64,000 bases of DNA from a virus, in the IMG/VR virus record IMGVR_UViG_3300021197_001743, positions 1 to 64,000 of that record; one strand, 5' to 3'. Positions 36,517 to 55,865 of the stretch are shown here, piece by piece (position 1 is the stretch's first letter; each line of letters opens with the position of its first letter). The translations under genes were made by a program, and so were the position numbers. The notes beneath the pieces were generated by a model. It had not been told where the DNA came from, did no database searches, and worked only from the letters and a program-made list of their open reading frames with translations.

Positions 36517-37206
36517 ATGAAATTAACAGAAGCAAAATTGAAAGCATTAATCCTAGAAGCGATGGAAGAGTCATTAAGTGACGGACAGAAGGAATTTTTA
36601 TTAGACCTTTTAAAAAGCGACGATCGCGAAACACAAACCCAAGGTGTAGAGTTGGCAACACAGTTCCTAGGGGAAAAGGAATTTTCAAATGCATTTAGAG
36701 GCCAACTGGACTTTGTGAATGGTGCTGAACTCCTTAACTGGCTCCGTCAGGGATCATCCCGAGGACCTAGGCAAGCCATGGATCGTTATATGGAAGTCCC
36801 AGATGGAATGAGTAAAGAGAAGAGGGAATTTCAATTAAGATTTCCGAATGCCGCATGGCGAGAACCAATATCAGACAAAGCCCATGAGACTTGGGTAGAT
36901 AGGGTCCAACAAATGCAGTCCAAACTAGTATCATTGGCAATGAGTGGAAACTTTGTGGAATGGGAAAAGCAATGGTTCGCTTTTAAAGATTTTTTAGGAT
37001 CTTTTTACGAAATTCATGCTCCGGGCTTTTGGCCCTCGTTAACAGACTCAGAACAAATGGGAGCAATTTATGGTCGTATACGAAGCGGAGGCACCCCTCG
37101 CCACTCAACAAAATCCTTTGGAAAAGCACAGGGAATGTTTGATCCAAGTTGGCGGCTAGCAATGCCCTTGGCCCATGAGATAGATAAAGCAAATCGAGAC
37201 CGATAA
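36517..37206 (+). CDS. Tagged protein (MKLTEAKLKALILE module), unknown body
   Basis: A 229-residue protein whose first 20 residues (MKLTEAKLKALILEAMEESL) are the N-terminal module shared with at least nine other proteins here. The module contains I-L-E, an [IL]-x-E tripeptide like the cleavage site of gp21-type proteases. The body (residues about 25-229) is helical, with several Trp residues (AWREPISDKAHETWVDRVQQ, FVEWEKQWFAFKDFLG), and is not recognised. First of three consecutive tagged genes; the start is preceded by GAGGG. I infer packaging into the head and removal of the module during maturation. Confidence 0.65.
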   Translation: MKLTEAKLKALILEAMEESLSDGQKEFLLDLLKSDDRETQTQGVELATQFLGEKEFSNAFRGQLDFVNGAELLNWLRQGSSRGPRQAMDRYMEVPDGMSKEKREFQLRFPNAAWREPISDKAHETWVDRVQQMQSKLVSLAMSGNFVEWEKQWFAFKDFLGSFYEIHAPGFWPSLTDSEQMGAIYGRIRSGGTPRHSTKSFGKAQGMFDPSWRLAMPLAHEIDKANRDR

Positions 37207-37208
37207 TT

Positions 37209-37715
37209 ATGAAACTAACAGAAGCAAAATTGAAAGAATTAATCCTAGAAGCCTATGTGGATGATTTAAAAACTCCCACTTCTTCAAATTCAGAAGGCGT
37301 GTTAACTTTTCCAACGTTGCCGCCGGTGGACACAGTGTATCATCCGGGATCAAACCGCAAACAAGTAAAACGTTTCCTCAAACAACCAAAGCTGACATTT
37401 CGAAGAGCAATCAATAAATTAGTTGGTGAATTTAAACGTTATATGACACCCCAATCAAAAAATAGACAAGGCTGGACTTTAAGAGACCCTAACTCTGTTG
37501 ATCGTATTGATATCCGAGTCGGAGTAAACATGTTCAGGGTTCAGATAAAATATTATAAAACACATCCAACCCCCGGCGGCGGAATGGTGCTTGTTGCAAA
37601 ACCATGGTACTCGCTGAAAGACTATCAGAATATTCCGGAAGACAGACAACTAGAAGTGTTTGAGGCACATGTCCGAGCACAAATAGAAAGTTTTATAAAA
37701 ACAAATAATTGGTAA
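37209..37715 (+). CDS. Tagged basic protein (MKLTEAKLKELILE module)
   Basis: A 168-residue protein with the shared module MKLTEAKLKELILEAYVDD. Its first 42 bases differ at only two positions from those of the preceding gene, while the bodies are unrelated, implying recent spread of the 5' module. The body is basic (for example NRKQVKRFLKQPKLTFRRAI), consistent with nucleic-acid binding inside a capsid. It starts 3 nt after the preceding stop without a clear ribosome-binding site and is probably translated by coupling. No fold is recognised. Confidence 0.65.
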   Translation: MKLTEAKLKELILEAYVDDLKTPTSSNSEGVLTFPTLPPVDTVYHPGSNRKQVKRFLKQPKLTFRRAINKLVGEFKRYMTPQSKNRQGWTLRDPNSVDRIDIRVGVNMFRVQIKYYKTHPTPGGGMVLVAKPWYSLKDYQNIPEDRQLEVFEAHVRAQIESFIKTNNW

Positions 37716-37721
37716 ACAACT

Positions 37722-38651
37722 ATGAAATTAACAGAAGCAAAATTGAAAGCATTAATACTTGAGACGATGGAAGAAGCAAGATTCTCCCGCAAGGACTATT
37801 CGAGGAAAATTGACGAGGTAGGGAGAATTATAACGCATGTGCTCGATAAGATTAGTGAAAGACTTGGAGCGTCTGATGATATCCAAAGGGGTCAAACTTC
37901 TAATGAACAAACAAAGAAGGTTGAGTTCACAATAGAGAAAGACGCAGCCGAGGGAATAGGGTTCATCAAAGGACGATTGTTAACACCAGCAAGCCAAGTA
38001 GGCGCTGGGAGAACTAGCCTGCCGACGTCGGAAGTATTGGAGATTGTGGTAAGCAACATGTCTGAAGGTGAATTTGACCAGACCACATTCACTTTTGACG
38101 ACATCATTGACGATGGCGGAGCCACGCTTACTCAAAAAATAAATGAGTATGAGAACCTGCTTGGCTCAAAAGATCCTGAAGCAGCAATGTCGGAATCATA
38201 TTACGACTCAAAGAGCAGAGTATCAGATGAGGGAGACCATGACAAAATCTTGGGAATGATTCAATCTGGTAGTTGGGCTCAAGCATTTTCTTTTTTGGAA
38301 ATGGGTTTTGCACAAGAATGGCCCGAGGACGCCAAGAATGATTTAATTTGGGACATCTACGATGGACTTGAGGGCTTCCACCAAAAAAACATAAGACCAC
38401 TTGAAATACTAATTGATAGATACGACAACCAAGGTAATCCATTCATGACAAAATCCGGTAACGTCCCTACACAAAAAGAGGTCGAAGGAAAAGGCGGTCT
38501 TAGAGATAGAGTTGCGCAACTAGAAGAAGAAGAGCAAAAATTGAAACTACTCGTAGCAGATCTTTTAAAATTGCCTGAAGATTGGTGGGAAGACCACTTG
38601 AAATACGCTGATCAACTCGAAGTAATTTTTAAAAGAGCAGGGATAATTTAA
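37722..38651 (+). CDS. Tagged protein (MKLTEAKLKALILE module), 309 residues
   Basis: The third consecutive tagged gene. The start MKLTEAKLKALILETMEEAR is nearly identical to that at 36517 at DNA and protein level. The body is acidic, with a beta-type segment (KKVEFTIEKDAAEGIGFIKG) and helices, ending in a coiled coil (RVAQLEEEEQKLKLLVADLL) at about residues 265-290. I do not recognise it. A promoter for the primase gene follows at once, so it ends this transcription unit. The body is long for an internal head protein, but the same packaging hypothesis applies. Confidence 0.63.
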   Translation: MKLTEAKLKALILETMEEARFSRKDYSRKIDEVGRIITHVLDKISERLGASDDIQRGQTSNEQTKKVEFTIEKDAAEGIGFIKGRLLTPASQVGAGRTSLPTSEVLEIVVSNMSEGEFDQTTFTFDDIIDDGGATLTQKINEYENLLGSKDPEAAMSESYYDSKSRVSDEGDHDKILGMIQSGSWAQAFSFLEMGFAQEWPEDAKNDLIWDIYDGLEGFHQKNIRPLEILIDRYDNQGNPFMTKSGNVPTQKEVEGKGGLRDRVAQLEEEEQKLKLLVADLLKLPEDWWEDHLKYADQLEVIFKRAGII

Positions 38652-38659
38652 CTTTTTTC

Positions 38660-38687
38660 TTGACAAATCCTCTCACCATGTTATATT
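38660..38687 (+). promoter_or_regulatory. Sigma70-like promoter P4
   Basis: TTGACA at 38660-38665 and TATATT at 38682-38687 with a 16-base spacer, in the 53-nt gap before the primase gene. The leader is short (about 11 nt) and contains GAGAGGA at 38694-38700. A TATAAT at 38687-38692 is also present but would need a 21-base spacer. Confidence 0.8.
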
Positions 38688-38704
38688 ATAATTGAGAGGA
38701 CAAT

Positions 38705-39640
38705 ATGAATGATAAACGAAAGATAATAACCGATATACTCGGTTCCTATCGCCGTGCTGGCGATGAACACTTATTTACCTGCCCGTTTTGCAACCACCAT
38801 AAAAAGAAGATGTCGGTCAACTTTTCGATCAACTCTTTTAAATGTTGGGTTTGCGATGCTCGAGGCAAGAACATTTACCGACTTGTAAGAAAGTTTGGTA
38901 ATTACCAACAGAGACAAAAGTATCTAGAACTCCAAGGAAGACTTGATCTTTCTGAATTCGACAACTTCTTTAATGAAATGAATGGTGTAGAAGAAAAGCA
39001 GATTGTAAAACTCCCAGAAGAGTTTCACTCCTTATGCAACAAACACTTGCCATTATCATCTAAGGAGCCAATACGATATTTAAATAGCAGAGGTATATCT
39101 AGACAAGATATATTAAAATGGAAAATCGGATATAGCAAAGGAGGGAAATATGGGGGAAGAATCATCATCCCGTCGTTCAACACAGAAGGCGATTGTAATT
39201 ACTTTATTGCTCGCTCTTACACTAGGCATTCTCGTAGGTACCTTAACCCGCCTTGCGGTCGAGATATTGTCTTTAATGAGCTTAATATTGACTGGGACGA
39301 CCCTGTGATACTTGTCGAAGGAGTCTTTGATGCAATTGTAGCTGGAGATAATGCAATACCAATTTTAGGGTCAACCCTAAGAGAAGATTCAAAACTATTT
39401 CAAGCAATAGCAATCCATGACACTCCGGTGTATATTGCACTAGACCCAGATGCCGAGAAAAAAGCACAGTGGATTATTCGGTCATTGATGAAATATGACT
39501 TGGAAATTAAAAAAATAAACATTGGAACTCATGAAGACATTGGCTCAATGTCTCAAAAATCGTTTCAAGAAAAATTAAAAAATGCCGAATCTGTCGATGG
39601 TGATATGTATTGGCTTGAAAAACAACTAAAAAATATATAA
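38705..39640 (+). CDS. DnaG-type DNA primase
   Basis: A 311-residue primase that makes RNA primers for lagging-strand DNA synthesis. The N-terminal zinc-binding domain has Cys26/Cys29 (TCPFCNHHKKK) and Cys47/Cys50 (FKCWVCDARGKN). The TOPRIM catalytic domain shows DDPVILVEGVFDAI with Glu205, and YIALDPDAEKKA with Asp247/Asp249 for metal binding. RYLNSRGISRQDILKWKIGY at about residues 124-143 is typical of the RNA polymerase domain of phage primases. The length is shorter than bacterial DnaG and similar to T4 gp61. No helicase domain is fused. It has its own promoter; nearby genes act in recombination. Confidence 0.88.
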   Translation: MNDKRKIITDILGSYRRAGDEHLFTCPFCNHHKKKMSVNFSINSFKCWVCDARGKNIYRLVRKFGNYQQRQKYLELQGRLDLSEFDNFFNEMNGVEEKQIVKLPEEFHSLCNKHLPLSSKEPIRYLNSRGISRQDILKWKIGYSKGGKYGGRIIIPSFNTEGDCNYFIARSYTRHSRRYLNPPCGRDIVFNELNIDWDDPVILVEGVFDAIVAGDNAIPILGSTLREDSKLFQAIAIHDTPVYIALDPDAEKKAQWIIRSLMKYDLEIKKINIGTHEDIGSMSQKSFQEKLKNAESVDGDMYWLEKQLKNI

Positions 39641-39647
39641 AAAATAC

Positions 39648-44000: not shown

Positions 44001-44233
44001 GACTAGCACTAATATCTGTGACTAATTTACCGAAAAGCGAACTATTTATACTTGACGAACCAGCAACAGCATTGGACGAAGAGCATATGGAAGGCTTTAT
44101 ACGGCTTCTTCAAATGATCAAAGGACAATTCAAGACGGTTCTATTGATTTCCCATCTCGAATCTCTCAAAGATATTGTCGACATGACAATTGACATTCAG
44201 AAAGTAGATGGCTATGCAAAGGTAAAAATATAA
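41084..44233 (+). CDS. 47-46: SbcD-SbcC (gp47-gp46, Mre11-Rad50) single-chain fusion
   Basis: A 1049-residue protein joining both subunits of the recombination nuclease complex. Residues 1 to about 360 are the Mre11/SbcD/gp47 phosphodiesterase with all motifs: D9-x-H11, G44-D45, G79-N-H-D82, H149 (ALYHGAIMG) and G182-D-I-H185. From about residue 368 (MKWNNLFNYG) follows the Rad50/SbcC/gp46 ATPase: Walker A G395-KNYSGKS402, a long coiled coil of about 400 residues with a zinc-hook-like C722-x2-C725, the signature LSMGSGAEKT (957-966) and Walker B LFILDEPATALDE (987-999). In T4 these are separate adjacent genes in the same order. The complex resects DNA ends for recombination-dependent replication. 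Expressed from its own promoter with GGAGG. Confidence 0.93.
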   Translation: MTTFAHISDTHIRNLKYHEEYRIVFKQIYDKLQQDCPDYIIHTGDMAHTKTQLSPEYFELTSDFLKNLADIAPTYIILGNHDGNLKNENRQDAITPIIDALQHPNLHLLKDSGETQLTDSICLNVLSVFDRDNWVPPSDKSMVNIALYHGAIMGCQVSDGWALENGEDDVNVFKDFDFAMLGDIHKTQHLDEEKRVWYAGSTVQQNFGESLGKGYLLWNIRDKDSFTVEKRFFMSPRPFVTVEINQDGTLPKVDVPRNARLRLVSNYNLPLVKLRRACEYAKITWKPYTVNFINKAGYSSKTVVENNGERINMRDQNTQEKYIKAFLSDKEISDEVLDRVLELNRKYSKQIEGSEDVSRNIVWKLRKMKWNNLFNYGEKNEIDFDKLNGLVGIFGKNYSGKSSIIDAALFGLFNVTSKGERKNVHIINQNKQKSKCQLEIGVGDDTYTITRNLERYEKNLKGVKTKEARTELDFSYYSLGEHFESKNGTTRTSTDKNIQKTFGTFSDFMITSMASQTDAFGFINEGSTKRKEILAKFLDLKMFEAKHKLAKKDSSEIKGVIKHLTSLDWRKKLQWSREALIEIKEEVAGQTRLCDKHSTRVKVLEEERKIIQNQLDSVGTDWVDIDELNTSLLRKQNSLSLASESLINGARKLKKLNALKIRLRSFIENFDVANCKDQIEKHKGLLKDVSIIERHIRSTKMEITNYQNKIDLLHDHEYDPDCEYCSNNQFVKEAEEAKTLIEQSKEALKGFEHDLGLANEKKEAINIVYIQAKLDDYNVKFREVKTNEVQIQKIKAQTDANESKKALAAKEIEEINAKIVHYRENQEAYENLESLQRDLKAINTTIEKKTKDIEHCNRKVLSLMSEEGATRRQIEEAREKIQQIDDAEKDFIAYDLFGQAMHPNGVSYQVIKSMLPIINAEISTILNTLVNFEVFFDNVGDKLEIYIKHPKYDPRPLSMGSGAEKTIASMAIRLALISVTNLPKSELFILDEPATALDEEHMEGFIRLLQMIKGQFKTVLLISHLESLKDIVDMTIDIQKVDGYAKVKI

Positions 44234-44562
44234 TGAAAATTACAAAAGAACAATTGAAACAAATTATCAAGGAAGAACTGGAGTCTGTGTTGGAAGGAAC
44301 TTACGATCATACAGATGGCCCAATGGAAAAAATGGTGATAAACATTAACAACGCTATTGTTAATGCTCGTGCACCCGGTAATATAGCAGCAGACCGGAAG
44401 CAAGAAGCCGGCATGCATTTAAAAAAACTATTAGATCAAGGAATGGACATTCAGCAAATTAAACAACAAGCATATGAAATGATGCAAGCGAGAGGCTGGA
44501 AAGGAAATAAACTTGACGCTGGTTTTGAAATCCTTAGAGAACTTGGAGATCAGATACAATGA
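44233..44562 (+). CDS. Tagged protein (MKITKEQLKQIIKEEL module)
   Basis: A 109-residue protein overlapping the SbcDC stop by TAATG. The N-terminal 20 residues are the shared module, with I-K-E as the [IL]-x-E tripeptide. Its coding bases for QIIKEELE are identical over 26 nt with those of the gene at 44803. The body is a small helical domain (AADRKQEAGMHLKKLLDQGM, QQIKQQAYEMMQARGWKGNK), unrecognised. It opens the coupled cassette of small genes reaching to 48494. Capsid packaging is inferred from the module. Confidence 0.65.
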   Translation: MKITKEQLKQIIKEELESVLEGTYDHTDGPMEKMVININNAIVNARAPGNIAADRKQEAGMHLKKLLDQGMDIQQIKQQAYEMMQARGWKGNKLDAGFEILRELGDQIQ

Positions 44563-44798
44563 ATGAAGAAAAGAAAGTAATGATTCAAAATGAATTATAC
44601 ATTAAGAATAAAGATAAAGGAATTCTAGATTCCATACAAGAAAAAGTTGCAAGTCGAAAGTTGCTCGTGTTTCTCACGGCAACCGGCTTGATGCTATGGG
44701 CACAACTGGACCCAGACATTTGGGGAATGATTGCAGTTTGCTACATTGGTGGTCAATCTGTTATTGATTTCGCAAAATCGTGGAAGCACGGAGGATAA
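44559..44798 (+). CDS. Small membrane protein, holin-like
   Basis: A 79-residue protein with a charged, helical N-terminal 33 residues, then one or two membrane segments: LLVFLTATGLMLWAQL (about residues 35-50) and IWGMIAVCYIGGQSVIDFA (about 54-72), and a short basic C-terminus (KSWKHGG). Size and topology fit a phage holin, and a coiled-coil membrane protein of spanin type lies two genes downstream. No endolysin is recognised beside it. It overlaps the tagged gene by ATGA. Could also be an unrelated membrane protein; functional assignment is tentative. Confidence 0.55.
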   Translation: MNEEKKVMIQNELYIKNKDKGILDSIQEKVASRKLLVFLTATGLMLWAQLDPDIWGMIAVCYIGGQSVIDFAKSWKHGG

Positions 44799-44802: not shown

Positions 44803-45171
44803 ATGAAAATAACCAAACAACAACTAAAACAAATTATCAAGGAAGAACTGGAATCTGTTTTCGAGACCTTTGGATCTAAAGCGGATACGCCGGAAACAAT
44901 CGCCCTGAGGCAGAAGGAAAGAGAGGAAGATGCTCTCACTGCTGATCGTGATGACGTTGACGAATATGTCCTTTGGGAACTAGATAAGCTTGAAGAAGAA
45001 GCCTTACTTCACTACGAGAAAAACCGCAGTGAGGAAGAAACAAAAGCATTAATGATGCCTCGAATCGAGGCTGAACTGGATCAAGATGATCACCCTGACA
45101 AGGCGGAAGAAGTTTGGGATTTTATTTGGAATAATATAGAGATTCAATTCAATCTAAAGAGTCAATTCTAA
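44803..45171 (+). CDS. Tagged acidic protein (MKITKQQLKQIIKEEL module)
   Basis: The start is placed at ATG 44803, with GGAGG at 44790-44794, because the shared module begins exactly there; an in-frame upstream ATG at 44731 lies inside the holin-like gene. The 122-residue protein has the module MKITKQQLKQIIKEELESVF followed by a strongly acidic helical body (REEDALTADRDDVDEYVLWE). The body is not recognised. Acidity could reflect DNA mimicry, as in several phage anti-restriction proteins, but no known family is seen, so that is speculation. Coupled to the next gene by TAATG. Confidence 0.65.
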   Translation: MKITKQQLKQIIKEELESVFETFGSKADTPETIALRQKEREEDALTADRDDVDEYVLWELDKLEEEALLHYEKNRSEEETKALMMPRIEAELDQDDHPDKAEEVWDFIWNNIEIQFNLKSQF

Positions 45172-45572
45172 TGAAAATCGCTTGGGCTAAAATAAAACTA
45201 TGGTGCTTTCATAACTGGAGAATTCTGGTTATTGTGGGCGCCATAGTTTTGGCTTATGCTCTCGGAGGCAAGAAAGTCAAAGCACTCCAAACTCAATTAC
45301 AAATGGCTCGAGAGCTTTATAAGAAAGAAGCCGATGCGATTGAAGGTGCCTCCCAAAAGAAAACAGAAATGCAAACCGAAGCCAACATTAAATACAAACG
45401 CGCTTTAGAGATTGCAAACGAAACAGCAACAAAAGAAAATACTCGTGCTGCATTTGGTAAATCTAAAAGAGTAAAAGAATTAATAGAGATTAACAAAGAC
45501 AACCCTGAAGCAATTGATAAGATTTTATCTGAAGAGTTTGGGATTATTATAATGACACCCGGAGACAAGTAA
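45171..45572 (+). CDS. Membrane-anchored coiled-coil protein, inner-membrane spanin-like
   Basis: A 133-residue protein with a short basic start (MKIAWAKIKLWCFHNW), one membrane segment (ILVIVGAIVLAYALGG, about residues 18-33), then a long helical coiled coil (about 35-115) that would be periplasmic if oriented N-in. This is the topology of Rz-type i-spanins that fuse inner and outer membranes at lysis. No overlapping Rz1-like lipoprotein was found. With the holin-like gene close by, a lysis role is plausible but unproven. It overlaps neighbours on both sides by TAATG. Confidence 0.55.
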   Translation: MKIAWAKIKLWCFHNWRILVIVGAIVLAYALGGKKVKALQTQLQMARELYKKEADAIEGASQKKTEMQTEANIKYKRALEIANETATKENTRAAFGKSKRVKELIEINKDNPEAIDKILSEEFGIIIMTPGDK

Positions 45573-45964
45573 TGAAACTCACAGAGAAAAAACTTAAGCA
45601 GATGATTGAAGAAGCAATGAACCAACCTTGCGAGGATATTGATCCGAACATAAAAAGTTTAATCCTATCCGGAGAAAAAGAGCAAATTATCCAAGGGTTC
45701 GAATTGTACTCAATGGTTACCGACTTGGACATTGATCTGGATGTACATGGCGGGACACCCAATGGTGAAATTCCTGATCCTCGCGTGCACATTAGTGTCG
45801 AAGGACCTGATTGGCAGAAGTTTATGGAATGTTTTCGTATTGATAAATTAATTAGCGAAAGATCAAGACTCTTGTTTATCAAAGTAGAAAAAATGAAAAT
45901 GGCATTTGTCCCTACGGGAATGAGATATAATGTTTTCAAGAAGCACTTTGCTGGGTCGGAATGA
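45572..45964 (+). CDS. Tagged protein (MKLTEKKLKQMIEEAM module)
   Basis: A 130-residue protein with the shared module, here with I-E-E as the [IL]-x-E tripeptide, then NQPCEDIDPN. The body contains beta strands and an acidic patch (YSMVTDLDIDLDVHGGTPNG) and a basic C-terminus (VEKMKMAFVPTGMRYNVFKK). The fold is not recognised. It sits between two membrane-associated proteins in the coupled cassette, so tag-bearing and membrane genes are interleaved. It overlaps the next gene by ATGA. Confidence 0.63.
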   Translation: MKLTEKKLKQMIEEAMNQPCEDIDPNIKSLILSGEKEQIIQGFELYSMVTDLDIDLDVHGGTPNGEIPDPRVHISVEGPDWQKFMECFRIDKLISERSRLLFIKVEKMKMAFVPTGMRYNVFKKHFAGSE

Positions 45965-46755: not shown

Positions 46756-47309
46756 GTGCAAAAACATTAGAAATTATTCAAGGGTTAGCCCAAGCTGCGG
46801 CGAATGCATACGATGGAGCTCACGATGAGCGATATAGTCTAGACGGACAGACGCACAATGTAGGACTTAACCGTGAAAATGGTCATCCAATACTAGACAA
46901 GAGAGTGAACGATGGCTTTGGTGTAAAGTTTTATGCTGACTCTGTTTGCATTACTTACCAAAGCGATGTCCGACTTGGAGATGTTAAAGATAGCAAGTTC
47001 GAGCAGGAAATGGAACGGATGCTTAATGAAGTTAAAAAATTCCTACAGAGGGAATACAAATCCATAACAGGCAATGGCATTACTCTTAAAAAGAAAGGCG
47101 AGCCAAAGATCATTGTACAAAGCACTTCGCGAGTTAGAACTTTTGTACAAGCATATCAGCACTATACAATTTCAGGCATTAAAGATATGGATGCTTTGTT
47201 AGAACCCAGCCGCTCTTCTGAAAACGATGTTATCAAGAAATTCTTGGAGCAACATTCAACCAAGAGACCACAAAACGAAAAAATTAAAAAAGGTGCAAAT
47301 CAAAAATGA
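46752..47309 (+). CDS. Protein of unknown function, 185 residues
   Basis: Starts by ATGA overlap. The N-terminus is helical (TLEIIQGLAQAAANAYDGAH). The central part has beta strands (FGVKFYADSVCITYQSDVRL) and the C-terminus is basic (STKRPQNEKIKKGANQK). It lacks the shared N-terminal tag and any signal peptide or catalytic motif. I do not recognise it. Its position within the cassette directly before the terminase gene suggests a head or internal protein, but this is context only. Confidence 0.58.
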   Translation: MSAKTLEIIQGLAQAAANAYDGAHDERYSLDGQTHNVGLNRENGHPILDKRVNDGFGVKFYADSVCITYQSDVRLGDVKDSKFEQEMERMLNEVKKFLQREYKSITGNGITLKKKGEPKIIVQSTSRVRTFVQAYQHYTISGIKDMDALLEPSRSSENDVIKKFLEQHSTKRPQNEKIKKGANQK

Positions 47310-47830
47310 ATCTTACAAGCGAAGAACTAAAGCAAATTATTCGAGAAGAATTACGTGCCATTCTGAGTGAGAACCGCGGTCAATTAGCTACTAGTGTTAT
47401 TGATACTGTTCGGAGATACATTCCTCAGAAGAACAGGTTTGAAAAACGAAAGTTCGACAAGCTTTTTTGGCAAGAGGGCCCTTTTATTATAACATACAGG
47501 AGAGACCCTGTAATGCTGCACGTTCCAGCAGTTTCGGCAACCGCAGCAGGGACGTCAACTGGCTTGGACTCTGTTTTCTATTACTCCAAGGACGCATTAG
47601 AGGGTCTTATGACACGTGATGGAAAGGATGAAGGCGACACATTATACTTTGGAGAAGTGCTAGGTAAGGCTACTCGTGGAATGGGTGATCTTGTGGAACT
47701 ACCGCAAAGCGAGTTCTTAAATAAAATTGAAGAGCTTGGCGGCGAACCTTTTAATCTAAACCCAAAATCCCTGAAAAAAGTGTTGGGATCACAACATAAA
47801 TTATTCGAGAAAAAAGGAACAAAAAAATGA
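47306..47830 (+). CDS. Tagged protein (MNLTSEELKQIIREEL module)
   Basis: A 174-residue protein with the shared module, I-R-E as the [IL]-x-E tripeptide, then RAILSENRG. The body begins with a helix (ATSVIDTVRRYIPQKNRFEK) and contains beta strands (GPFIITYRRDPVMLHVPAVS). It ends with a lysine-rich tail. The fold is not recognised. ATGA overlaps join it to both neighbours, and it opens a run of three consecutive tagged genes that ends at the terminase gene, mirroring the trio at 36.5-38.7 kb. Confidence 0.65.
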   Translation: MNLTSEELKQIIREELRAILSENRGQLATSVIDTVRRYIPQKNRFEKRKFDKLFWQEGPFIITYRRDPVMLHVPAVSATAAGTSTGLDSVFYYSKDALEGLMTRDGKDEGDTLYFGEVLGKATRGMGDLVELPQSEFLNKIEELGGEPFNLNPKSLKKVLGSQHKLFEKKGTKK

Positions 47831-48198
47831 AAATTACAAATCAACAACTAAAACAAATAATCCGAGAAGAACTGCGAAACGTTCTTGGAGGGCTTATCCT
47901 CGAGGGATTCGAAAAGGGCTCTTGGGCAATGGGCGTTGCTGGAAAAGAGGTGCCCGGCAAAGTTGAAATGCGCCAAAAATTAATTCTCCAAAGCCTTGGA
48001 GACAAAGCCAGAATCTGGAAACTTAGAGAGACCCCAGAAGGAGATGACCTTTTCGCTACCCTCGAACCGGGTAAATTTGTCAATACGAATCTCGACACGG
48101 TCAAGCCGTGGATCAATTCTCAAAACGCTGTCGGTGGTACCGGATCAGCGTTTTATCTTTCTCCTGAAGAACTCACGGCTATTGGGATTTCGATATGA
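47827..48198 (+). CDS. Tagged protein (MKITNQQLKQIIREEL module)
   Basis: A 123-residue protein. Its first 60 coding bases differ from those of the next gene at only three positions, while the rest is unrelated, a clear case of 5' module duplication. After the module comes RNVLGGLILEGFEKGSW, then a beta-rich body (KARIWKLRETPEGDDLFATL) not recognised. The body ends in SPEELTAIGISI. It overlaps both neighbours by ATGA. Confidence 0.66.
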   Translation: MKITNQQLKQIIREELRNVLGGLILEGFEKGSWAMGVAGKEVPGKVEMRQKLILQSLGDKARIWKLRETPEGDDLFATLEPGKFVNTNLDTVKPWINSQNAVGGTGSAFYLSPEELTAIGISI

Positions 48199-48494
48199 AA
48201 CTTACAAATCAACAACTAAAACAAATAATCCGAGAAGAACTGCAAAATGTTCTTAGTGAAGGATCGATGAGCGATGCCAAAAAATCAATCGAGCAAGAAG
48301 TGGACGCCAGCAGTCACTGGCGGCGTAATAAATATCTGAAAGGATTTATGAGTCTGAAATATGTCTCCGGAAATCCTCCTGAAGATTATGTTTCATGGGT
48401 TCGAAACGCCGAGCAGGCCATGGAAGAAGGCTCTAATGAAGCATCGGAAGCATATTACCTTGTTAAGAAGCATATGAAAAAGGTGGGCGCCTAA
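48195..48494 (+). CDS. Tagged protein (MKLTNQQLKQIIREEL module)
   Basis: A 99-residue protein with module MKLTNQQLKQIIREELQNVL, almost identical in DNA to the preceding gene's start. The body is a short helical domain (DASSHWRRNKYLKGFMSLKY, then WVRNAEQAMEEGSNEASEAY), unrecognised, ending in basic residues. It is the last gene before the large terminase, separated by 12 nt that contain an AGAGG ribosome-binding site. No small terminase is identified in the window; this helical protein and its neighbours are not convincing candidates. Confidence 0.65.
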   Translation: MKLTNQQLKQIIREELQNVLSEGSMSDAKKSIEQEVDASSHWRRNKYLKGFMSLKYVSGNPPEDYVSWVRNAEQAMEEGSNEASEAYYLVKKHMKKVGA

Positions 48495-48506: not shown

Positions 48507-50090
48507 ATGGCTTTTAAACTGTCAAAACAAGAGATTGTAAAAGAGATTGTGAAATGCGGAAAGGATCCACAATTCTTCATTGATAACTATTGCATGATCT
48601 CACATCCACTTAGAGGATTAATTCCTTTCAAGACCTTCGATTATCAAAAAGACCTACTCAAGGACTTTAACGATTATCGATTTAATATTATATTAAAAGC
48701 CAGACAACTTGGTATCTCCACGATCTCCGCGGGATACATTGTCTGGTTTATGCTTTTTCATCGAGATAAGAACATTCTTGTCATCGCCACCAAATTTGGT
48801 ACAGCAGCGAACCTCGTGAAAAAAGTAAAGCAAATAATGAAAAATCTTCCTTCTTGGATTCAAATTTCAAAAATCATCACAGATAACAAGACCTCATTCG
48901 AATTATCAAACGGCTCCCAGATTAAAGCCGGAACCACTTCTGGGGACGCTGGTCGTTCGGAAGCATTATCACTGCTCGTTATAGACGAGGCAGCACACGT
49001 AGAAGGCCTTGATGACTTGTGGACAGGTCTTTACCCTACTCTATCAACAGGAGGGCGTTGCATAGCCTTATCGACCCCTAATGGGGTAGGTAATTGGTTC
49101 CACAAGACTTACGTTGATGCTGACAATGAAGAGAACGATTTTCATCCAATTAATTTACCATGGGATGTTCACCCCGAGCGTGACCAAGCATGGTTTCAAA
49201 AAGAGACAAAAAATATGTCTCGTAGACAAATCGCCCAAGAATTAGAATGCAATTTCAATACATCTGGTGATACGGTAATTCATCCGGATGATATGCAATG
49301 GTTGTTTGAAAACATCAAGGATCCGATATATAGAACAGGATACGATAGAAACTTTTGGATATGGGAAAAATATCAGGAAGGAGCTTCATATGTTCTGGTT
49401 GCGGATGTTGCTCGTGGCGACGGTGCGGACTATTCTGTGTTTCATATTATTCGTTTAGATACAATGGAAATAATTGCCGAATATCAAGGTAAGCCAAGTC
49501 TAGACTTGTATTCCAACATATTGAACGAAGCAGGAAGGGAATATGGAAGCTGCTTGTTGGTTGTTGAGAATAATGGAATCGGAATTTCGGTTCTCGAGAA
49601 ACTAAACACGCTAGAGTATCCAAACATTTATTATTCTATCAAATCAACGCACGAGTTTATTGACTCATCTATCGCCGAAGGTAATGACCGAGCAGTTATG
49701 GGTTTTACTACAAGTACTAAAACTAGGCCTTTAATTGTTGCTAAATTGGAAGAGTACATCAGGAACAAACTAATTAGTGTGAACTCTAATAGGATTTTTC
49801 ATGAATTCAAAACTTTTATTTGGTATAATGGCAAACCCCAAGCAATGCGCTCTTACAATGACGATCTCGTCATGTCTTTGGCTATTGCTTGCTGGGTCCG
49901 CGATACAGCGCTACAAGAGAATCAACGGGAAGTTGAATACAAGAAGGCGATGCTAACTGGCATTATGAAATCTACACAAGTTTTTGAAACAAGAATCAAA
50001 GGACAGGATGGCTATAACGAAACCTTCGAGAAGAAATACGAAGAAGAAATAAAAAAAGCAAAAGATTTTTTTTGGATTTATAAAGGATAA
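48507..50090 (+). CDS. 17: Terminase large subunit (gp17-like)
   Basis: A 527-residue DNA packaging motor with ATPase and nuclease domains. The Walker A-like motif is KARQLGIS at residues 64-71, as in T4-like terminases, following the adenine-binding FDYQKD. Walker B is LLVIDEAAH (Asp160, Glu161). Coupling motif: IALSTPNG near 186-193. The RNase H-fold nuclease has VLVADVARGDGADYS (Asp300), LLVVENNGIG (Glu354) and SYNDDLVMSLAIA (Asp452/453). It translocates DNA through the portal, encoded next, and cuts concatemers. The length is slightly shorter than T4 gp17, with little extra N-terminal sequence. The portal gene begins 3 nt downstream. Confidence 0.95.
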   Translation: MAFKLSKQEIVKEIVKCGKDPQFFIDNYCMISHPLRGLIPFKTFDYQKDLLKDFNDYRFNIILKARQLGISTISAGYIVWFMLFHRDKNILVIATKFGTAANLVKKVKQIMKNLPSWIQISKIITDNKTSFELSNGSQIKAGTTSGDAGRSEALSLLVIDEAAHVEGLDDLWTGLYPTLSTGGRCIALSTPNGVGNWFHKTYVDADNEENDFHPINLPWDVHPERDQAWFQKETKNMSRRQIAQELECNFNTSGDTVIHPDDMQWLFENIKDPIYRTGYDRNFWIWEKYQEGASYVLVADVARGDGADYSVFHIIRLDTMEIIAEYQGKPSLDLYSNILNEAGREYGSCLLVVENNGIGISVLEKLNTLEYPNIYYSIKSTHEFIDSSIAEGNDRAVMGFTTSTKTRPLIVAKLEEYIRNKLISVNSNRIFHEFKTFIWYNGKPQAMRSYNDDLVMSLAIACWVRDTALQENQREVEYKKAMLTGIMKSTQVFETRIKGQDGYNETFEKKYEEEIKKAKDFFWIYKG

Positions 50091-50093: not shown

Positions 50094-52004
50094 ATGGCAC
50101 GTAACGATAGAAACCCAAACAATAACGAGAACAGTCTGTTTAAGGCTCTTACACGAGTATTCTCTGGACCGATGGTACAAAGAAGAACACAGACCGGAAG
50201 ACAACTGAGGCGGAGGCAATTAGACAAGTACGCTAACAAATTCCGTTCCACTTCCGGACTACAATTCAAAAAGTCAGAATATAACCCAATGAATGTTATG
50301 GCCCTCAATATGATTTCAAATAGAAATCGATCTGAGCGATATGTTGACTTTGACCAGATGGAATACACCCCAGAAATAGCTTCTTCGTTGGACATCTATG
50401 CTGATGAAATGACTACACACTCTAGTCTCACTCCAATGTTAAATATTAAATGCGCGAATGAAGAAATTAAATTCATTCTTCATTCTTTGTATTATGACAT
50501 TCTTAATGTTAATTCAAACTTGTTTGGCTGGGCACGGACCATGTGTAAATATGGAGACTTCTTTTTGTTCTTAGATATAGATGAACATATGGGTGTCCGT
50601 AATTGTATTGGGCTTCCACCGCAAGAAGTCGAGCGCTTGGAAGGAGAAGACCCTTCCAATCCAAATTATATTCAGTTTCAATGGAATTCAGGCGGCTTGA
50701 CTTTCGAAAATTGGCAAATTTCTCACTTTCGTGTTCTTGGAAATGATAAGTATGCACCTTATGGAACATCCGCTTTAGAACCAGCTAGACGCATCTGGAG
50801 ACAGTTAACTCTCCTTGAGGATGCTATGATGGCTTATCGAATCGTTCGAGCAACCGAACGACGTGTTTTTAAAATTGATGTTGGAGGGATTGCCCCGCAA
50901 GAAGTGGAACAATATATGCAAAAAGTAATGACTCAGATGAAGCGACACCAAGTTGTTGATCCTGATACGGGTCGAGTTGACCTCAGATATAATCCGATGT
51001 CGATTGAAGAAGATTATTTTATTCCAGTTCGTGGAGGACAATCATCCACCGATATCGATAATCTTCCCGGTGGACAATTCACTGCTGCTATTGAAGATGT
51101 AAAGTATCTTCGAGATAAATTGTTTTCTGCTCTTAAAGTTCCGCAGTCATATCTCTCAATGGGCGAAGGAGCGACTGAGGACAAAACAACATTGGCTCAA
51201 AAAGATATCCGTTTCGCAAGAACCATCCAAAGACTTCAGCGAGTTGTTATATCCGAATTAGAAAAGATTGGCATCATTCATTTGTTCACTCTTGGGTTCC
51301 GTGGAGATGACTTGCTAAATTTTGAACTATCTCTTAATAATCCGAGCAAGATAGCAGAGATGCAAGAACTTGAGCACTGGAAAACAAAATTTGACATCGC
51401 AGGGTCTGCTACGGATGGTTACTTTTCTAAGAGATGGGTCGCTGAGCACCTACTTGGGCTTTCGGAAGAAGAGTACATCCGGATGCAACGCGAAATGTTC
51501 CATGATAGAAAATTCTCAGCCAAACTAGAGGCTGTTGGTCAACCTGCTGAAGCTGGAGGAGATCTAGGTGGAGACCTCGGAGGAGACTTGGACCTTGGCG
51601 ATGATTTGGATCTCGGTGGAGAAGAAGGCGGTGATCTAGACCTTGGTGGAGAAGAAGCTGGTGGCGGTGCTGAGGATGACGATGTATTGTTGGCCGAGCC
51701 TCCCGGAAAACGCGATGATAATGCTAGACCTAAGAAGAGAAGGCCTTATGCCAAAGATTCTAAGAAAACGTATCGCAAGGGCGGTCGGAGAAAACAGATG
51801 AAGAATATGGCTTCAGGCGAGATCGGAACATTACGAAAGACCTTTCCGGGCAAGTCGGGCTTTGGCGGCCTAGATTCATTAGCGCGAGGCCTGATGGAAG
51901 AAAGTAATTCTGATATTTTGGAAGAAAGAAAACTATTTAGTACTGATTTTGAAATCAAATCATTAATTGAATCGCTAAAAAAGGTTGACGAAGATGAAAC
52001 ATAA
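50094..52004 (+). CDS. 20: Portal protein (gp20-like)
   Basis: A 636-residue portal vertex protein forming the dodecameric ring through which DNA enters and leaves. Gp20-type features include YVDFDQMEYTPEIASSLDIY near residues 82-101, ATERRVFKIDVGGIAPQEVE (about 255-274), and the core GGQSSTDIDNLPGGQFTAAI followed by LFSALKVPQSYLSMGEGATE. The N-terminus is basic. An unusual acidic Gly/Asp/Leu repeat (residues about 486-529) and a basic region (KKRRPYAKDSKKTYRKGGRR) precede the C-terminus. The C-terminus overlaps the next gene by 11 nt. Order terminase-portal-protease matches T4. Confidence 0.92.
   Translation: MARNDRNPNNNENSLFKALTRVFSGPMVQRRTQTGRQLRRRQLDKYANKFRSTSGLQFKKSEYNPMNVMALNMISNRNRSERYVDFDQMEYTPEIASSLDIYADEMTTHSSLTPMLNIKCANEEIKFILHSLYYDILNVNSNLFGWARTMCKYGDFFLFLDIDEHMGVRNCIGLPPQEVERLEGEDPSNPNYIQFQWNSGGLTFENWQISHFRVLGNDKYAPYGTSALEPARRIWRQLTLLEDAMMAYRIVRATERRVFKIDVGGIAPQEVEQYMQKVMTQMKRHQVVDPDTGRVDLRYNPMSIEEDYFIPVRGGQSSTDIDNLPGGQFTAAIEDVKYLRDKLFSALKVPQSYLSMGEGATEDKTTLAQKDIRFARTIQRLQRVVISELEKIGIIHLFTLGFRGDDLLNFELSLNNPSKIAEMQELEHWKTKFDIAGSATDGYFSKRWVAEHLLGLSEEEYIRMQREMFHDRKFSAKLEAVGQPAEAGGDLGGDLGGDLDLGDDLDLGGEEGGDLDLGGEEAGGGAEDDDVLLAEPPGKRDDNARPKKRRPYAKDSKKTYRKGGRRKQMKNMASGEIGTLRKTFPGKSGFGGLDSLARGLMEESNSDILEERKLFSTDFEIKSLIESLKKVDEDET
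51549..51681 (+). repeat. In-frame Gly-Asp-Leu repeat within portal gene
   Basis: Short tandem repeats encode variations of GGDLGGDLDLGDDLDLGG and GGEEGGDLDLGG, giving a flexible, strongly acidic linker in the portal C-terminal region. Repeats of this kind expand or contract by slippage, so length may vary between relatives. Confidence 0.7.
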
Positions 52005-52815: not shown

Positions 52816-53398
52816 CATTGACACTGCTGACTCTACGGAAGAAAACAACATAGATATCAAAATAACTCCAGATGATGGAGGAGTAAATTTAGATGTAATC
52901 AAAGAAGAAACTTTGGACTATAATCTAAACTTAAGATCTGCCCTCAACGGAGATTTGATGATAATGGATCACAAGGACATCGATATTGTTATCCAGCAAG
53001 GTAATAAAAAGATCGTAGCATTTGCAAAGGACGCAATGACAGACGCAGTATACGGTGCAGAATCTAGACTCTTAGAGTTCCTGAGAAAGAAAGGAGTAAT
53101 TAAGATTGATTCTATCCAAGGCGGAAATATTTATGGATCTTTGGAAGGAACAATAATGGAATCAGATGATTTTCATCCAATCTCCTCAGCTCTAATAAAC
53201 GTCTCTGAGTGGATGGAGACAGAGAGACCATACATGCAAGGCGTAACCGCTTATGATGATATGCAAGACGATGCTCTAACTGACCCAGATAACATTGACT
53301 CTACGGATTTGGGAGACGTATCTCAGGCTGAAGAGAAAGGCTCCATCAGCCCTAGAACTATATTTTCACCAGCAATGTACGGCAGGTTTTCATTGTAA
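52799..53398 (+). CDS. Acidic head-region protein, unrecognised
   Basis: A 199-residue protein. ATG 52799 is chosen because GGAGGT at 52784-52789 has proper spacing; an upstream TTG at 52781 precedes that site. The N-terminus is beta-rich and acidic (GIKINIDTADSTEENNIDIK), the middle has a helical segment (AMTDAVYGAESRLLEFLRKK), and the tail is disordered and acidic (DDALTDPDNIDSTDLGDVSQ). I do not recognise it. In this position it may be a prohead core or completion protein, by context. Coupled to the next gene by TAATG. Confidence 0.58.
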   Translation: MGIKINIDTADSTEENNIDIKITPDDGGVNLDVIKEETLDYNLNLRSALNGDLMIMDHKDIDIVIQQGNKKIVAFAKDAMTDAVYGAESRLLEFLRKKGVIKIDSIQGGNIYGSLEGTIMESDDFHPISSALINVSEWMETERPYMQGVTAYDDMQDDALTDPDNIDSTDLGDVSQAEEKGSISPRTIFSPAMYGRFSL

Positions 53399-54108
53399 TG
53401 AAGCTTATAATAGAAAACTGGAACCACTATCTTCACGAAGGAAGTGATGCACCAATTCCACTGCCAGATGTTGCTAAAGTCGCCCTCTATCATGATCCTG
53501 AGGTTGACAATCATGAATTAATATTATATGGTATGGGTCGGAATGGCCCATTCCCATTCGCAGCATGCGGAATTGATAGATTGACAGAGGACGAAGAAAA
53601 CCCCTGCATACCTGAGACTTGGCACATGAGTTGGATCTATGTCCACCAAAGATTTCAAAGTCAAGGATGGAGTAAGATTTTATATGGTATCTCTTTCAAC
53701 TTAGTCAACAGCCTTGGCGGCGGTCTTACGTCGGACCACTGGTCTTCCACATCAGATGACGCAAAAGGTCGAGCTTGGGATAAGATGATCAGCAGGGGAC
53801 AATTGACTCCTAGAACAACGCCCGGCAAACACCCCTTTGGTGGCCACTCTGAGTTTGACTATGGCGAACCGGGATTTAAGAAAACTCCGTTGGATCCAAT
53901 GGATGATTGTCGAGAGCCCGTTGATGAACCTGCAACTAATAACAGTTGGGTTATGAAAGGCCATAGTAAATTTGAACCAATCTACAACACCTTAACACAG
54001 AACCACGAGCAAATTATGTCGGCGGTTTCTGATCGAAAGGAAATCGAAAGGAAACTGTCTGATGCTGCAGCTGACGGCTTTGAGGCTGCTTATATGGGGG
54101 GAGCGTGA
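53398..54108 (+). CDS. GNAT-like acetyltransferase with tag-like N-terminus
   Basis: A 236-residue protein. Residues about 30-110 resemble the GNAT acetyltransferase fold: beta strands, then MSWIYVHQRFQSQGWSKILY, matching the V-x-x-x-x-R/Q-x-x-G-x-G/A acetyl-CoA loop, with Q-x-x-G-W in place of the canonical R-x-x-G-x-G, then a helix. The N-terminus MKLIIENWNHYLHEG is a 15-residue amphipathic segment with I-I-E and L-H-E tripeptides, reminiscent of T4 capsid-targeting sequences. The C-terminal half is Pro/Gly-rich and unrecognised. In the head gene block this could be an internal protein acting on the host after injection. The enzyme assignment is tentative. Confidence 0.5.
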   Translation: MKLIIENWNHYLHEGSDAPIPLPDVAKVALYHDPEVDNHELILYGMGRNGPFPFAACGIDRLTEDEENPCIPETWHMSWIYVHQRFQSQGWSKILYGISFNLVNSLGGGLTSDHWSSTSDDAKGRAWDKMISRGQLTPRTTPGKHPFGGHSEFDYGEPGFKKTPLDPMDDCREPVDEPATNNSWVMKGHSKFEPIYNTLTQNHEQIMSAVSDRKEIERKLSDAAADGFEAAYMGGA

Positions 54109-54434
54109 ATCTACTCGCTTTCATCCTTGTCTCTTATGGTATGACTTTTATTGTTGTCTATGGCAAGATCTTCGAGAACATAAGGCCAAAAAAAGATTAT
54201 ACTAAAAAATGGAACACTCTTTTCCACTGTCCACTGTGTATGGGATTTTGGTGTTCGCTGTTTTTGTTTTGCATAAACGGCTACACAGAACTATTTACAT
54301 TTGAATATTCCTTAGGGAATATGTTCTGCCTCTCTTGTTTGGGAGCTGGGACAACTTATTTGCTCTCCATGATTGTCAATGACTTTGGTGTGAGAGTATC
54401 GTCGAGATCAGGAGGTGATTATGTTGACGATTAA
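54105..54434 (+). CDS. DUF1360-family membrane protein
   Basis: A 109-residue membrane protein that starts at GTG (overlap GTGA with the preceding stop). It has an N-terminal membrane segment (LLAFILVSYGMTFIVVYG), then the characteristic LFHCPLCMGFWCSLFLFCI motif, then a third hydrophobic stretch (MFCLSCLGAGTTYLLSMIV). The C-P-x-C-x-G-F-W signature identifies the DUF1360 family, common in phage genomes near head genes. Its function is unknown. The paired cysteines could bind metal or form disulfides. The tail overlaps a mini-ORF with a perfect ribosome-binding site. Confidence 0.82.
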   Translation: MNLLAFILVSYGMTFIVVYGKIFENIRPKKDYTKKWNTLFHCPLCMGFWCSLFLFCINGYTELFTFEYSLGNMFCLSCLGAGTTYLLSMIVNDFGVRVSSRSGGDYVDD

Positions 54435-54480
54435 ACGATGGATGCTTCAGCCCGTCCGACGTTGCTGCTCCGGAAGTTGA
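54421..54480 (+). CDS. 19-codon mini-ORF with perfect Shine-Dalgarno
   Basis: Encodes MLTIKRWMLQPVRRCCSGS. An exact anti-16S complement, AGGAGGTGAT, lies at 54410-54419, GGAGG ending five bases before this ATG, the best ribosome-binding site in the window. It overlaps the DUF1360 C-terminus. The peptide is basic and ends with Cys-Cys. A hairpin with a T-run follows 6 nt after the stop. It may be a real small protein or a leader peptide regulating the protease gene downstream. Translation is likely from the signal; function unknown. Confidence 0.5.
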   Translation: MLTIKRWMLQPVRRCCSGS

Positions 54481-54485
54481 GCCAA

Positions 54486-54508
54486 GCCGGTAGCGCCGGC
54501 ATCTTTTT
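54486..54508 (+). terminator. Short GC hairpin plus T-run, weak terminator or attenuator
   Basis: GCCGG at 54486-54490 pairs with CCGGC at 54496-54500 around a five-base loop and is followed by ATCTTTTT. The stem is only five G-C pairs, so termination would be partial. It lies between the mini-ORF and the prohead protease gene. A CCGG at 54470-54473, inside the mini-ORF, could pair with either arm, giving alternative structures. Confidence 0.45.
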
Positions 54509-54523
54509 ACTCTGAGGGAAATA

Positions 54524-55132
54524 ATGAAAAAAAAATTACTAAGAGAATTCTATGCTTTATGCGAAGGTGGGATCTGTCAAGATCTTTTATCTGAGCGGGA
54601 AAAGCGGGAAATGCAAAATGGCACCCTATATTTATCAGGGCGCCTGCAAACTGCTGATAAGCAAAACGGAAATGGCCGTGTTTATCCGCACAATGTTCTT
54701 AAGCGAGAAATTGATAACTATATGAAAATTGTCGAAGACAATCGTGCTTGTGGAGAACTTGACCACCCAGACGATTCAGTGGTGAACCTTAAGAATGTCT
54801 CGCACATTATAACAGAAGTGTGGTGGGAAGGAAAGGATGTTATGGGAAAAATTAAAGTACTAGATACACCCTCAGGTCGCATACTCAAAGATTTAGTGAA
54901 GGCTGGTGTAAAGCTTGGTATTTCTTCTCGAGGGCTTGGATCAGTTAGTGAATCCATGGGTGTTGTTACAGTTGAAAGCGACTTCCAATTGATTTGCTTT
55001 GATATGGTTTCAGAACCATCGACACCAAACGCGTATATGCTACCGCAAGGTCAAAATAATATTTCTACTCGTCTACGAGAAGTAAAAGAAAATAACATAG
55101 ATAATCTATTTAAAAAGATTTTGGGTGATTGA
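54524..55132 (+). CDS. 21: Prohead core protease (gp21-like, peptidase U9/S78-like)
   Basis: A 202-residue serine-type protease that cleaves scaffold, capsid and internal proteins during head maturation. Key features: GRLQTADKQNGNGRVYPHNV (residues 39-58), catalytic His81 in ACGELDHPDDS, and the Ser motif LGISSRGLGS (131-140, Ser134/Ser135), followed by the core EPSTPNAYM segment. The length matches T4 gp21 (212). The N-terminus MKKKLLREFYALCEGG includes L-R-E and L-C-E tripeptides that could be self-cleavage sites, as gp21 auto-processes. GAGGG precedes the ATG. Two module-bearing genes follow directly. Confidence 0.94.
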   Translation: MKKKLLREFYALCEGGICQDLLSEREKREMQNGTLYLSGRLQTADKQNGNGRVYPHNVLKREIDNYMKIVEDNRACGELDHPDDSVVNLKNVSHIITEVWWEGKDVMGKIKVLDTPSGRILKDLVKAGVKLGISSRGLGSVSESMGVVTVESDFQLICFDMVSEPSTPNAYMLPQGQNNISTRLREVKENNIDNLFKKILGD

Positions 55133-55134
55133 TA

Positions 55135-55446
55135 ATGCAAATTAATAAAGCAAGACTAAAAGAAATAATTCTAGAAGAACTAAAGAGAGAAATGCAGTTC
55201 GATCCAGAGTCTGCGTTAGAAATTACAAAGACTGAGCGGGCAATAAAAGATTTAAAGCTAGCCATGGAAAAAATGAAGATGTCTCTCTCTGGAGAGTGGG
55301 CAATAGCTAATTTACAAGGCTACCCAGCTGATGAACAACCTGACATGTCGCAGATTGAACAACAGATACAAGATATGCAATCTGCGGTAGAAGACCTTGA
55401 ATTCGCCATTCAATCTGAACAACATAACATGCACCAGAGGAAATAA
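55135..55446 (+). CDS. Tagged helical protein (MQINKARLKEIILEEL module)
   Basis: The start is at ATG 55135, 2 nt after the protease stop; an in-frame TTG at 55129 is unlikely. The 103-residue protein opens with the shared module, I-L-E as tripeptide, and continues as a helical, Met/Gln/Glu-rich protein (IEQQIQDMQSAVEDLEFAIQ) with coiled-coil character. No fold is recognised. Being directly after the prohead protease it could be a prohead core component similar in role to T4 gp22 or the internal proteins. Coupled to the next gene by TAATG. Confidence 0.66.
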   Translation: MQINKARLKEIILEELKREMQFDPESALEITKTERAIKDLKLAMEKMKMSLSGEWAIANLQGYPADEQPDMSQIEQQIQDMQSAVEDLEFAIQSEQHNMHQRK

Positions 55447-55865
55447 TGAAAAAAGAAGAATTAAAAAAGATTTTGAGACCATTGATTAAAGAATGTGTTA
55501 AGGAGGTAATCTTTGAAGAAGGAACCCTTTCAACAATCATATCTGAGGTCTTAAAAGGAACAAGTCAACAATTGGTAACAGAAGTTAAGCAGCCTCAAAG
55601 AAAAGTTGAGACTGATCAGCAAGCTCGCCAAAGAAGAGAAAAGTTGATAAAAGAACAAAGAAAAAAAATGCTTGACGCAATAGGTAAAGACTCATACAAT
55701 GGAGTTGATCTATTTGAAGGCACAACACCTATGCAGGCCGATAGATCTGGTGGAGCCTCATCCCACAGGTCCAAGGCATTAGAGGGCATTGCTCCCCATG
55801 ACCCCGGTGTGGATATATCTTCCTTCGGCACGTCAGGCATATGGAAAAAACTAGCAGGAAATTAA
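55446..55865 (+). CDS. Head-region protein with diverged tag (MKKEELKKILRPLIKEC)
   Basis: A 139-residue protein. The first 30 residues are a diverged relative of the shared module (MKKEELKKILRPLIKECVKE), with I-K-E. A second hydrophobic-acidic helix follows (VIFEEGTLSTIISEVLKG). The middle is basic and coiled (QQARQRREKLIKEQRKKMLD), and the C-terminus is Gly/Ser/Pro-rich (APHDPGVDISSFGTSGIWKK). I do not recognise the body. It directly precedes bS21, with no intergenic space, so both are probably made together late in infection. Confidence 0.62.
   Translation: MKKEELKKILRPLIKECVKEVIFEEGTLSTIISEVLKGTSQQLVTEVKQPQRKVETDQQARQRREKLIKEQRKKMLDAIGKDSYNGVDLFEGTTPMQADRSGGASSHRSKALEGIAPHDPGVDISSFGTSGIWKKLAGN

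Follow-up and report, generated by a model that had tools for sequence, protein, structure and literature searches.

Genes and tags at the locus

The stretch of DNA that we have analysed (hereafter, the window) comprises the first 64 kb of the 120,038-bp record IMGVR_UViG_3300021197_001743, of which the full-record coordinates are marked G000; the virus is marine and T4-like, and the window holds a T4-type block of head genes. Ten open reading frames (ORFs) of the window begin with a common N-terminal module of about 22 residues (consensus M[KR][IL]TxxxLKxIIxEELxxVLxE), which we refer to as "tag 1" and which is probably a capsid-targeting propeptide. The tags and the other features of the locus are listed in Table 1.

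The ten ORFs had been named in an earlier reading of the letters alone (the sequence-only reading), and all of them are present, with the module, at the starts that it gave; the ATG at 44803 lies inside a longer ORF that opens with TTG at 44731, and the ATG at 55135 inside an ORF that opens at 55129. The proposed start, MK-[LI]-T and so on, was right as to the module and too narrow as to its letters, the true form being M[KNQR][LI][TN]xxxL[KR]x[IL]IxE, with MNLT at 47306 and MQIN at 55135. The complete divergence of the bodies that follow the module has been borne out, each of the ten constituting a separate blastp family. By contrast, two of the three genes that had been taken for diverged copies are something else: the protein at 53398 belongs to a second tag family, and the protease at 54524 has a conserved leader of its own, with conserved L-x-E sites (DLL[TSN]E near residue 24); the third, at 55446, is a conserved gene of the protease locus that does have a related, though longer, N-terminus.

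Unsupervised clustering of the N-termini of the 122 ORFs of the 120-kb record has placed the ten window ORFs, together with those at G000 91377 and 92140, in by far the largest cluster, and two weaker copies are located at 97846 and 109990 of the record. Tag 1 is absent from the other functional genes of the window that were checked (primase, SbcC-like, terminase, portal and resolvase). Apart from the protease, none of the nine window proteins tested against Pfam has a confident family.

Table 1. Coordinates of tags and other features; a slash marks a candidate cleavage position.
Feature	Position	Strand	Sequence or remark
Tag 1, ORF 36517-37206 (229 aa)	36517..36582	+	MKLTEAKLKALILE/AMEE/S; cut likely after E14 (ILE/A) or E18
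Tag 1, ORF 37209-37715 (168 aa)	37209..37274	+	MKLTEAKLKELILE/AY
Tag 1, ORF 37722-38651 (309 aa)	37722..37787	+	MKLTEAKLKALILE/TMEE/A
Tag 1, ORF 44233-44562 (109 aa)	44233..44298	+	MKITKEQLKQIIKEELESVLE/G
Tag 1, ORF 44803-45171 (122 aa; mechanical ORF from TTG 44731)	44803..44868	+	MKITKQQLKQIIKEELESVFE/T
Tag 1, ORF 45572-45964 (130 aa)	45572..45637	+	MKLTEKKLKQMIEE/A; without second site
Tag 1, ORF 47306-47830 (174 aa)	47306..47371	+	MNLTSEELKQIIREELRAILSE/N
Tag 1, ORF 47827-48198 (123 aa)	47827..47904	+	MKITNQQLKQIIREELRNVLGGLILE/G; DNA near-identical to 48195 module
Tag 1, ORF 48195-48494 (99 aa)	48195..48260	+	MKLTNQQLKQIIREELQNVLSE/G
Tag 1, divergent, ORF 55135-55446 (103 aa)	55135..55200	+	MQINKARLKEIILEELKREMQ
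Tag 2 on predicted GNAT-fold protein (ORF 53398-54108)	53398..53439	+	MKLIIENWNHYLHE/G; modelled as detached, low-confidence helix
Prohead protease, gp21 type	54524..55132	+	Peptidase_S77 PF03420, 110.5 bits against a cut-off of 27; phrog_207
Conserved gene of the prohead locus	55446..55865	+	N-terminus MKKEELKKILRPLIKECVKEVIFEE resembles tag 1; 74 relatives
Terminase large subunit	48507..50090	+	head-gene context, without tag
Portal protein, gp20 type	50094..52004	+	context, without tag
gp22-like scaffold gene, start	63788..64000	+	MSSMLEQAIIDAAALRE/AALK; kept in 20 relatives; runs off the window
Carriers of C-terminal domain KKFKVYV...	G000 109990-110943; L103:7590; L227:11392; L110:16270; L094:11041
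Large proteins in the region of shared N-termini	58155-60536; 60733-63612

Tag 1 in relatives and its cargo

Among relatives, 319 non-redundant proteins begin with tag 1; their bodies fall into 276 blastp families, and conservation of the tag drops to background past residue 22. In a protease-anchored sample of 80 IMG/VR loci, picked solely because they encode a protein closely related to the protease (1217 ORFs, 317,359 amino acids), 76 ORFs from 44 loci match a strict regular expression for tag 1 exactly at their start codon, and a further 12 matches are internal, while shuffling residues 2-41 of all 1217 ORFs has given 0.0 matches. Chance is excluded as the cause of this recurrence. An artefact of start codons or gene calling was rejected on the rarity of the internal matches, and a Sec signal peptide was rejected because the hydrophobic positions (3, 8, 11, 12, 16, 19 and 20, in a profile read by eye) are split by K, E and Q.

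A degenerate DNA pattern for tag 1 occurs in at least 120 stretches of IMG/VR, as compared with only 8 in 84,980 genomes of bacteria and archaea; these 8 lie without exception in contigs of metagenome-assembled genomes (MAGs), and since three of the five MAGs also hold an S77 protease, these are probably phage contigs that were misbinned. The contig NHDW01000006 (305,838 bp; L231, L234 and L235), filed under a Methylococcaceae MAG with an S77 protease, has at least five tag-1 genes and is likely a misbinned large phage. One 289-kb record carries 12 copies.

It could be argued that tag 1 is a by-product of recombination or duplication, i.e. a mobile start-codon cassette that has no targeting role: the modules of 47827 and 48195 are almost identical in DNA, with unrelated bodies and upstream sequences, the near-identity of these neighbours, and of 36517, 37209 and 37722, extends over only about 48 bp, and codons for the same residue differ in 40% of the pairs, where 60% would be expected if they were independent. 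However, between deeply diverged phages the codons have changed synonymously while the peptide has been kept, conservation stops at a protease-type site and not at a DNA boundary, and tags of a different sequence replace each other on homologous bodies; we hold this explanation to be highly improbable. Recent DNA duplication as the sole cause of tag 1 was rejected; local DNA copying may be how the tags spread.

Most of the 122 long tag-1 proteins have no match; those with one include an RNase_T exonuclease (L079 and L226), a YkuD L,D-transpeptidase (L224) and pentapeptide repeats (L129). Single-sequence searches have found no relatives for the bodies of 36517 and G000:91377; for the latter, an alignment query did find relatives and Foldseek gave no usable match. 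A tblastn search of a phage collection with the 22-residue tag gave no match, the tag being probably masked by the low-complexity filter. Bodies are hardly shared between phages, the cargo varying almost completely among relatives, and this variety fits delivered effectors better than structural parts. The structural alternative, that tag-1 proteins are prohead-core proteins like gp67 and gp68 of T4, degraded and expelled, is quite unlikely in our estimate: it would agree with the position of 55135 and 55446 next to the protease, with the small, charged bodies of many tagged proteins and with the cleavage of T4 core proteins at L-x-E, but essential core proteins would be conserved, and the cargo includes enzyme-like proteins (the exonuclease, the transpeptidase and a GNAT protein) and pentapeptide repeats. 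For 55135 and 55446 themselves, a core role may hold even if tag 1 is a packaging signal.

As a separate observation, a C-terminal domain (KKFKVYV...RKSFRARHxC...YWxCxxW) sits on proteins whose N-terminal tags differ, tag 1 and one tag of the Flavobacterium phage immuto being among them.

The probable cleavage site

T4 gp21 cuts after L/I-x-E (PMC9026906). The sequence-only reading had placed the cut of the module at its I-x-E; a gp21-type site is indeed part of the module, but a cut after residue 14, the invariant glutamate, is unlikely in most copies, where residue 15 is a second glutamate. The DNA pattern behind part of the 319-copy sample required E14-E15; in the protease-anchored sample, which had no such requirement, residue 15 is E in 78 of 86 copies.

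A further site, [LIMVF]-x-E, has its glutamate at residue 21 or 22 in 179 of the 319 copies, as compared with 24 (maximum 39) after shuffling residues 16-32 and with a mean of 110 (maximum 124) after shuffling within columns; the excess over the column-preserving shuffles indicates that the hydrophobic residue and the glutamate are coupled as one unit. The residue that follows (P1') is A, G or S in 43% of these sites and in 20% of the internal L-x-E sites of the same proteins (p=1.7e-9). In this clade, the major capsid proteins keep [LIV][LIV]xE/[SAQV] at the cleavage position of T4 gp23. Because the site at residues 21-22 matches the phage's own capsid site and fits the specificity of gp21 better, it is favoured over E14/E, and it is the likelier cut in most copies.

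The two sites appear to trade off: the second is kept in 12 of 29 copies that have A, S, T or G at residue 15, and in 221 of 278 copies that have E15 (p=2.9e-5). It is rarer where site 14 seems open to cleavage, as though a single good site were enough; this comparison was devised after the data had been seen, and the copies share descent. In the window, residue 15 is A or T in 36517, 37209, 37722 and 45572, where site 14 may be the cut, and the later site is present in 44233, 44803, 47306, 47827 and 48195.

A second tag and natural exchanges of tags

The proposal of one interchangeable tag holds insofar as tag 1 is located on many unrelated proteins; at least two tags exist, however. Tag 2 (MKL[IL][ML]E[NS]WRxFLxE) resembles the capsid-targeting sequence (CTS) of T4 and is located at the start of about 20 other unrelated bodies, some of which have domains that resemble P-loop kinases, guanylate kinases or zeta toxins. 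In AlphaFold models, both types of tag are low-confidence helices, detached from the folded bodies.

Two families of homologous bodies carry either tag. In the family of G000:91377, tag 1 occurs in G000:91377 and L060 and tag 2 in about 20 relatives; the body of L078 is 76% identical to that of L060, yet has tag 2, and all 18 aligned members keep the glutamate that precedes the body (E18 in this phage). In the family of 53398, nearly all members have tag 2 and L129 has tag 1 (E=1e-17); the model of 53398 has a GNAT fold (predicted local distance difference test score of 88.5) with matches in the Protein Data Bank to GNAT acetyltransferases, and L129 contains Pfam Acetyltransf_1. These exchanges would support a tag that is independent of its cargo.

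Linkage to the prohead protease

The presence of a gp21-like protease, claimed by the sequence-only reading, has been confirmed: the product of 54524 passes the cut-off of the curated family Peptidase_S77 and is located in a T4-type head gene cluster. That reading had also proposed to search related genomes for the co-occurrence of module and protease, and to ask whether the module is equally common where the protease is missing. Among 25 long contigs that bear the module, 18 have an S77 protease and 18 a Gp23-type capsid gene; 17 of the 18 with the capsid gene have S77, and in the remaining one the capsid gene lies at the contig edge. In 25 long control contigs selected by ThyX, of which 4 have S77, a looser pattern was found in one, which is S77-positive; the sample is small (50 records) and the statistics ignore phylogeny.

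Comparison with known packaging systems

The first 10 residues of T4 IPIII suffice for packaging (PMC9026906). Like tag 1, the CTS of IPI, IPII and IPIII, which works with gp21, is a short N-terminal peptide on unrelated bodies that ends with L/I-x-E and is followed by a small residue; our clustering of N-termini, applied to T4, recovers all three proteins. In contrast to the 10 residues of the CTS, tag 1 has about 22, differs in sequence and often contains two L-x-E sites; a genome may hold 12 copies of it or more, and its cargo is far more varied. The CTS form (MKTYQEFIAE; F/Y..F[IL].E) is absent from tag 1 and present in tag 2 (53398), and we class tag 1 as a peptide that would work like the CTS, not as its homologue. 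On T4 itself, gene 61.1 (18966-19130), listed as hypothetical only, encodes a protein that starts with MKTFKEFIKED, which has the form of a CTS.

The published virion proteome of cyanophage S-CREM2 (PMC10665884, Table 3) contains soluble enzymes that its authors have not told apart from contaminants. The pattern M..[FLY]..F[LIMF].E, which follows the T4 CTS and the exact letters of which were fixed after the sequences had been seen (a reservation that belongs with those gathered below), occurs in 5 of the 51 virion proteins detected by mass spectrometry and in 0 of the 176 others (p=5e-4). The five are a SAM hydrolase (MKDFDSFLEE), a kinase (MKRFDAFLTEE), a cytidylyltransferase (MKNFSSFLTEA) and two hypothetical proteins; a large nuclease also has LRFASFMAEA near its start. 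The enzyme tags are interchangeable and end with F[LM]xE, the same form as tag 2 of the present clade; S-CREM2 has no tag 1, and its paper (PMC10665884) mentions no targeting tag. In the window, an NMNAT/cytidylyltransferase-like protein (35953-36498) is untagged, while its S-CREM2 counterpart is tagged; the class occurs in cyanophage virions.

The head ejection proteins of phiKZ-like phages and SPN3US are likewise large head-packaged sets that are matured by a gp21-related prohead protease (PMC9026906, PMC5694885, PMC7411985), which cuts N-terminal propeptides (phiKZ motif S/A-x-E). The propeptides of those phages are long and protein-specific, whereas one short module is reused here.

The nearest isolate by terminase, the Flavobacterium phage immuto (MW353175), has a similar gene order at the head locus and an S77 protease; no strict copies of tag 1 were found in it. 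It reuses several N-terminal tags, among them the tag-1-like MKKSQLRxIIKEEL, ENFDLKKFLVENKLT and MKKQILSEQFxRMQxLAGIITES, and has a separate cluster of N-termini that resemble signal peptides. The last of the three tags opens two different proteins (L108 25061 and L110 26675) and ends with I-x-E/S. A literature search has found no virion proteomics for immuto, and a text search with the tag peptide strings has found no paper.

Interpretation and proposed mechanism

We consider it probable that tag 1 targets proteins to the capsid as a propeptide in the style of T4, of a new sequence class and in far heavier use than in T4. The recurrence, the modularity, the cleavage-type consensus, the protease linkage and the natural swaps of the tag have been observed; the new, widely deployed class of propeptide remains a prediction, though a well-supported one. 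The gp21-dependent head-packaging tag of the sequence-only reading is thus retained, on the S77 co-occurrence, the cleavage consensus, the swaps and the cyanophage mass spectrometry, but without its single tag and without site 14 as the usual cut. The link from tag 2 to virion proteins, together with the tag swaps, supports tag 1 as a packaging signal.

Several observations weigh against this interpretation. The S-CREM2 evidence concerns tags that are like tag 2, and the literature search has found no virion proteome for any phage with tag 1. No second site is located at residues 17-24 in 79 of the 319 copies, and 55135 has no site beyond E15. T4, S-CREM2 and Mel-JY01 lack tag 1 despite their S77 proteases, i.e. 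the protease does not require it, and the linkage to S77 might be due to common descent in a single phage lineage. By itself, the tag-1 consensus has an unexceptional hydrophobic moment, while the mean over the copies exceeds that of shuffled sequences.

Part of this evidence would also agree with an uncleaved peptide that docks to some other partner, of the phage or of the host (e.g. a transcription or replication complex), with S77 as a mere lineage marker: apart from a few MAG contigs, probably misbinned, tag 1 occurs in a single broad T4-like lineage only, and E14, its strongest single residue, is followed by E in most copies, unlike a gp21 site. Such a peptide would not account for the coupled unit of L-x-E and small residue at the end of the module, for the trade-off between the second site and site 14, for the exchange with a CTS-like tag, or for the association of that type of tag with virion proteins, and we regard it as unlikely.

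If tag 1 is a capsid-targeting propeptide, the tag would form a short amphipathic N-terminal helix by which the protein docks to the prohead core as the head is assembled; the protease at 54524 would then cut after [I/L/M/V]-x-E, usually at residues 21-22 and otherwise at residue 14, as the site statistics suggest. The mature body would stay in the head with the DNA and, by analogy with T4, would probably be ejected into the host. The tag would work independently of its cargo and would be exchangeable with the second, T4-CTS-like tag. Taken together, the evidence suggests that the head of the virus is loaded with the tagged proteins, which it would probably deliver to the infected bacterium. 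A broader reading, which we put forward tentatively and which is possible without being probable, is that this abundant marine T4-like lineage uses at least two distinct, interchangeable sorting tags in order to load a large, fast-changing set of effectors (nucleases, acetyltransferases, cell-wall enzymes, kinases and pentapeptide-repeat proteins) into the same capsid. Each tag may have a docking partner of its own in the prohead core, e.g. tag 1 via 55446 and tag 2 via the scaffold.

Most marine phage proteins have no known function. If tag 1 is what we propose, a readable N-terminal tag would indicate, from the sequence alone, which of these uncharacterized proteins the particle carries and delivers as soon as infection begins. 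The effectors that a very common group of phages packages would become identifiable, and protein delivery by T4-like capsids would gain a second packaging signal, distinct in sequence. The link to published, unexplained enzymes of cyanophage virions makes the idea immediately testable.

Neighbouring genes and other recurrent N-termini

The product of 55446 is a possible core protein, and the gp22-like label of the gene at 63788 is given by its position and N-terminal form alone. The major capsid protein of the record is located at G000:65014. A phage-encoded ribosomal protein S21 lies close downstream of the protease (55866-56081), resembling the published case of bS21-encoding phages of Bacteroidetes (PMC9723584).

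Another recurrent N-terminus, M[AS]SNxYTxGLxNVGSYQVSG, opens proteins of different lengths at 56117-56548, 56548-56964, 56977-58155 and around G000 103116, with dozens of members in relatives; it is probably a module for virion or fibre attachment and not a packaging tag. Relatives also share the N-termini MAEFGWAYVxG...SGSxQ (as at 58155) and MAYKFQLGxxxLSGS on large proteins of very different length, which are possibly tail-fibre anchors.

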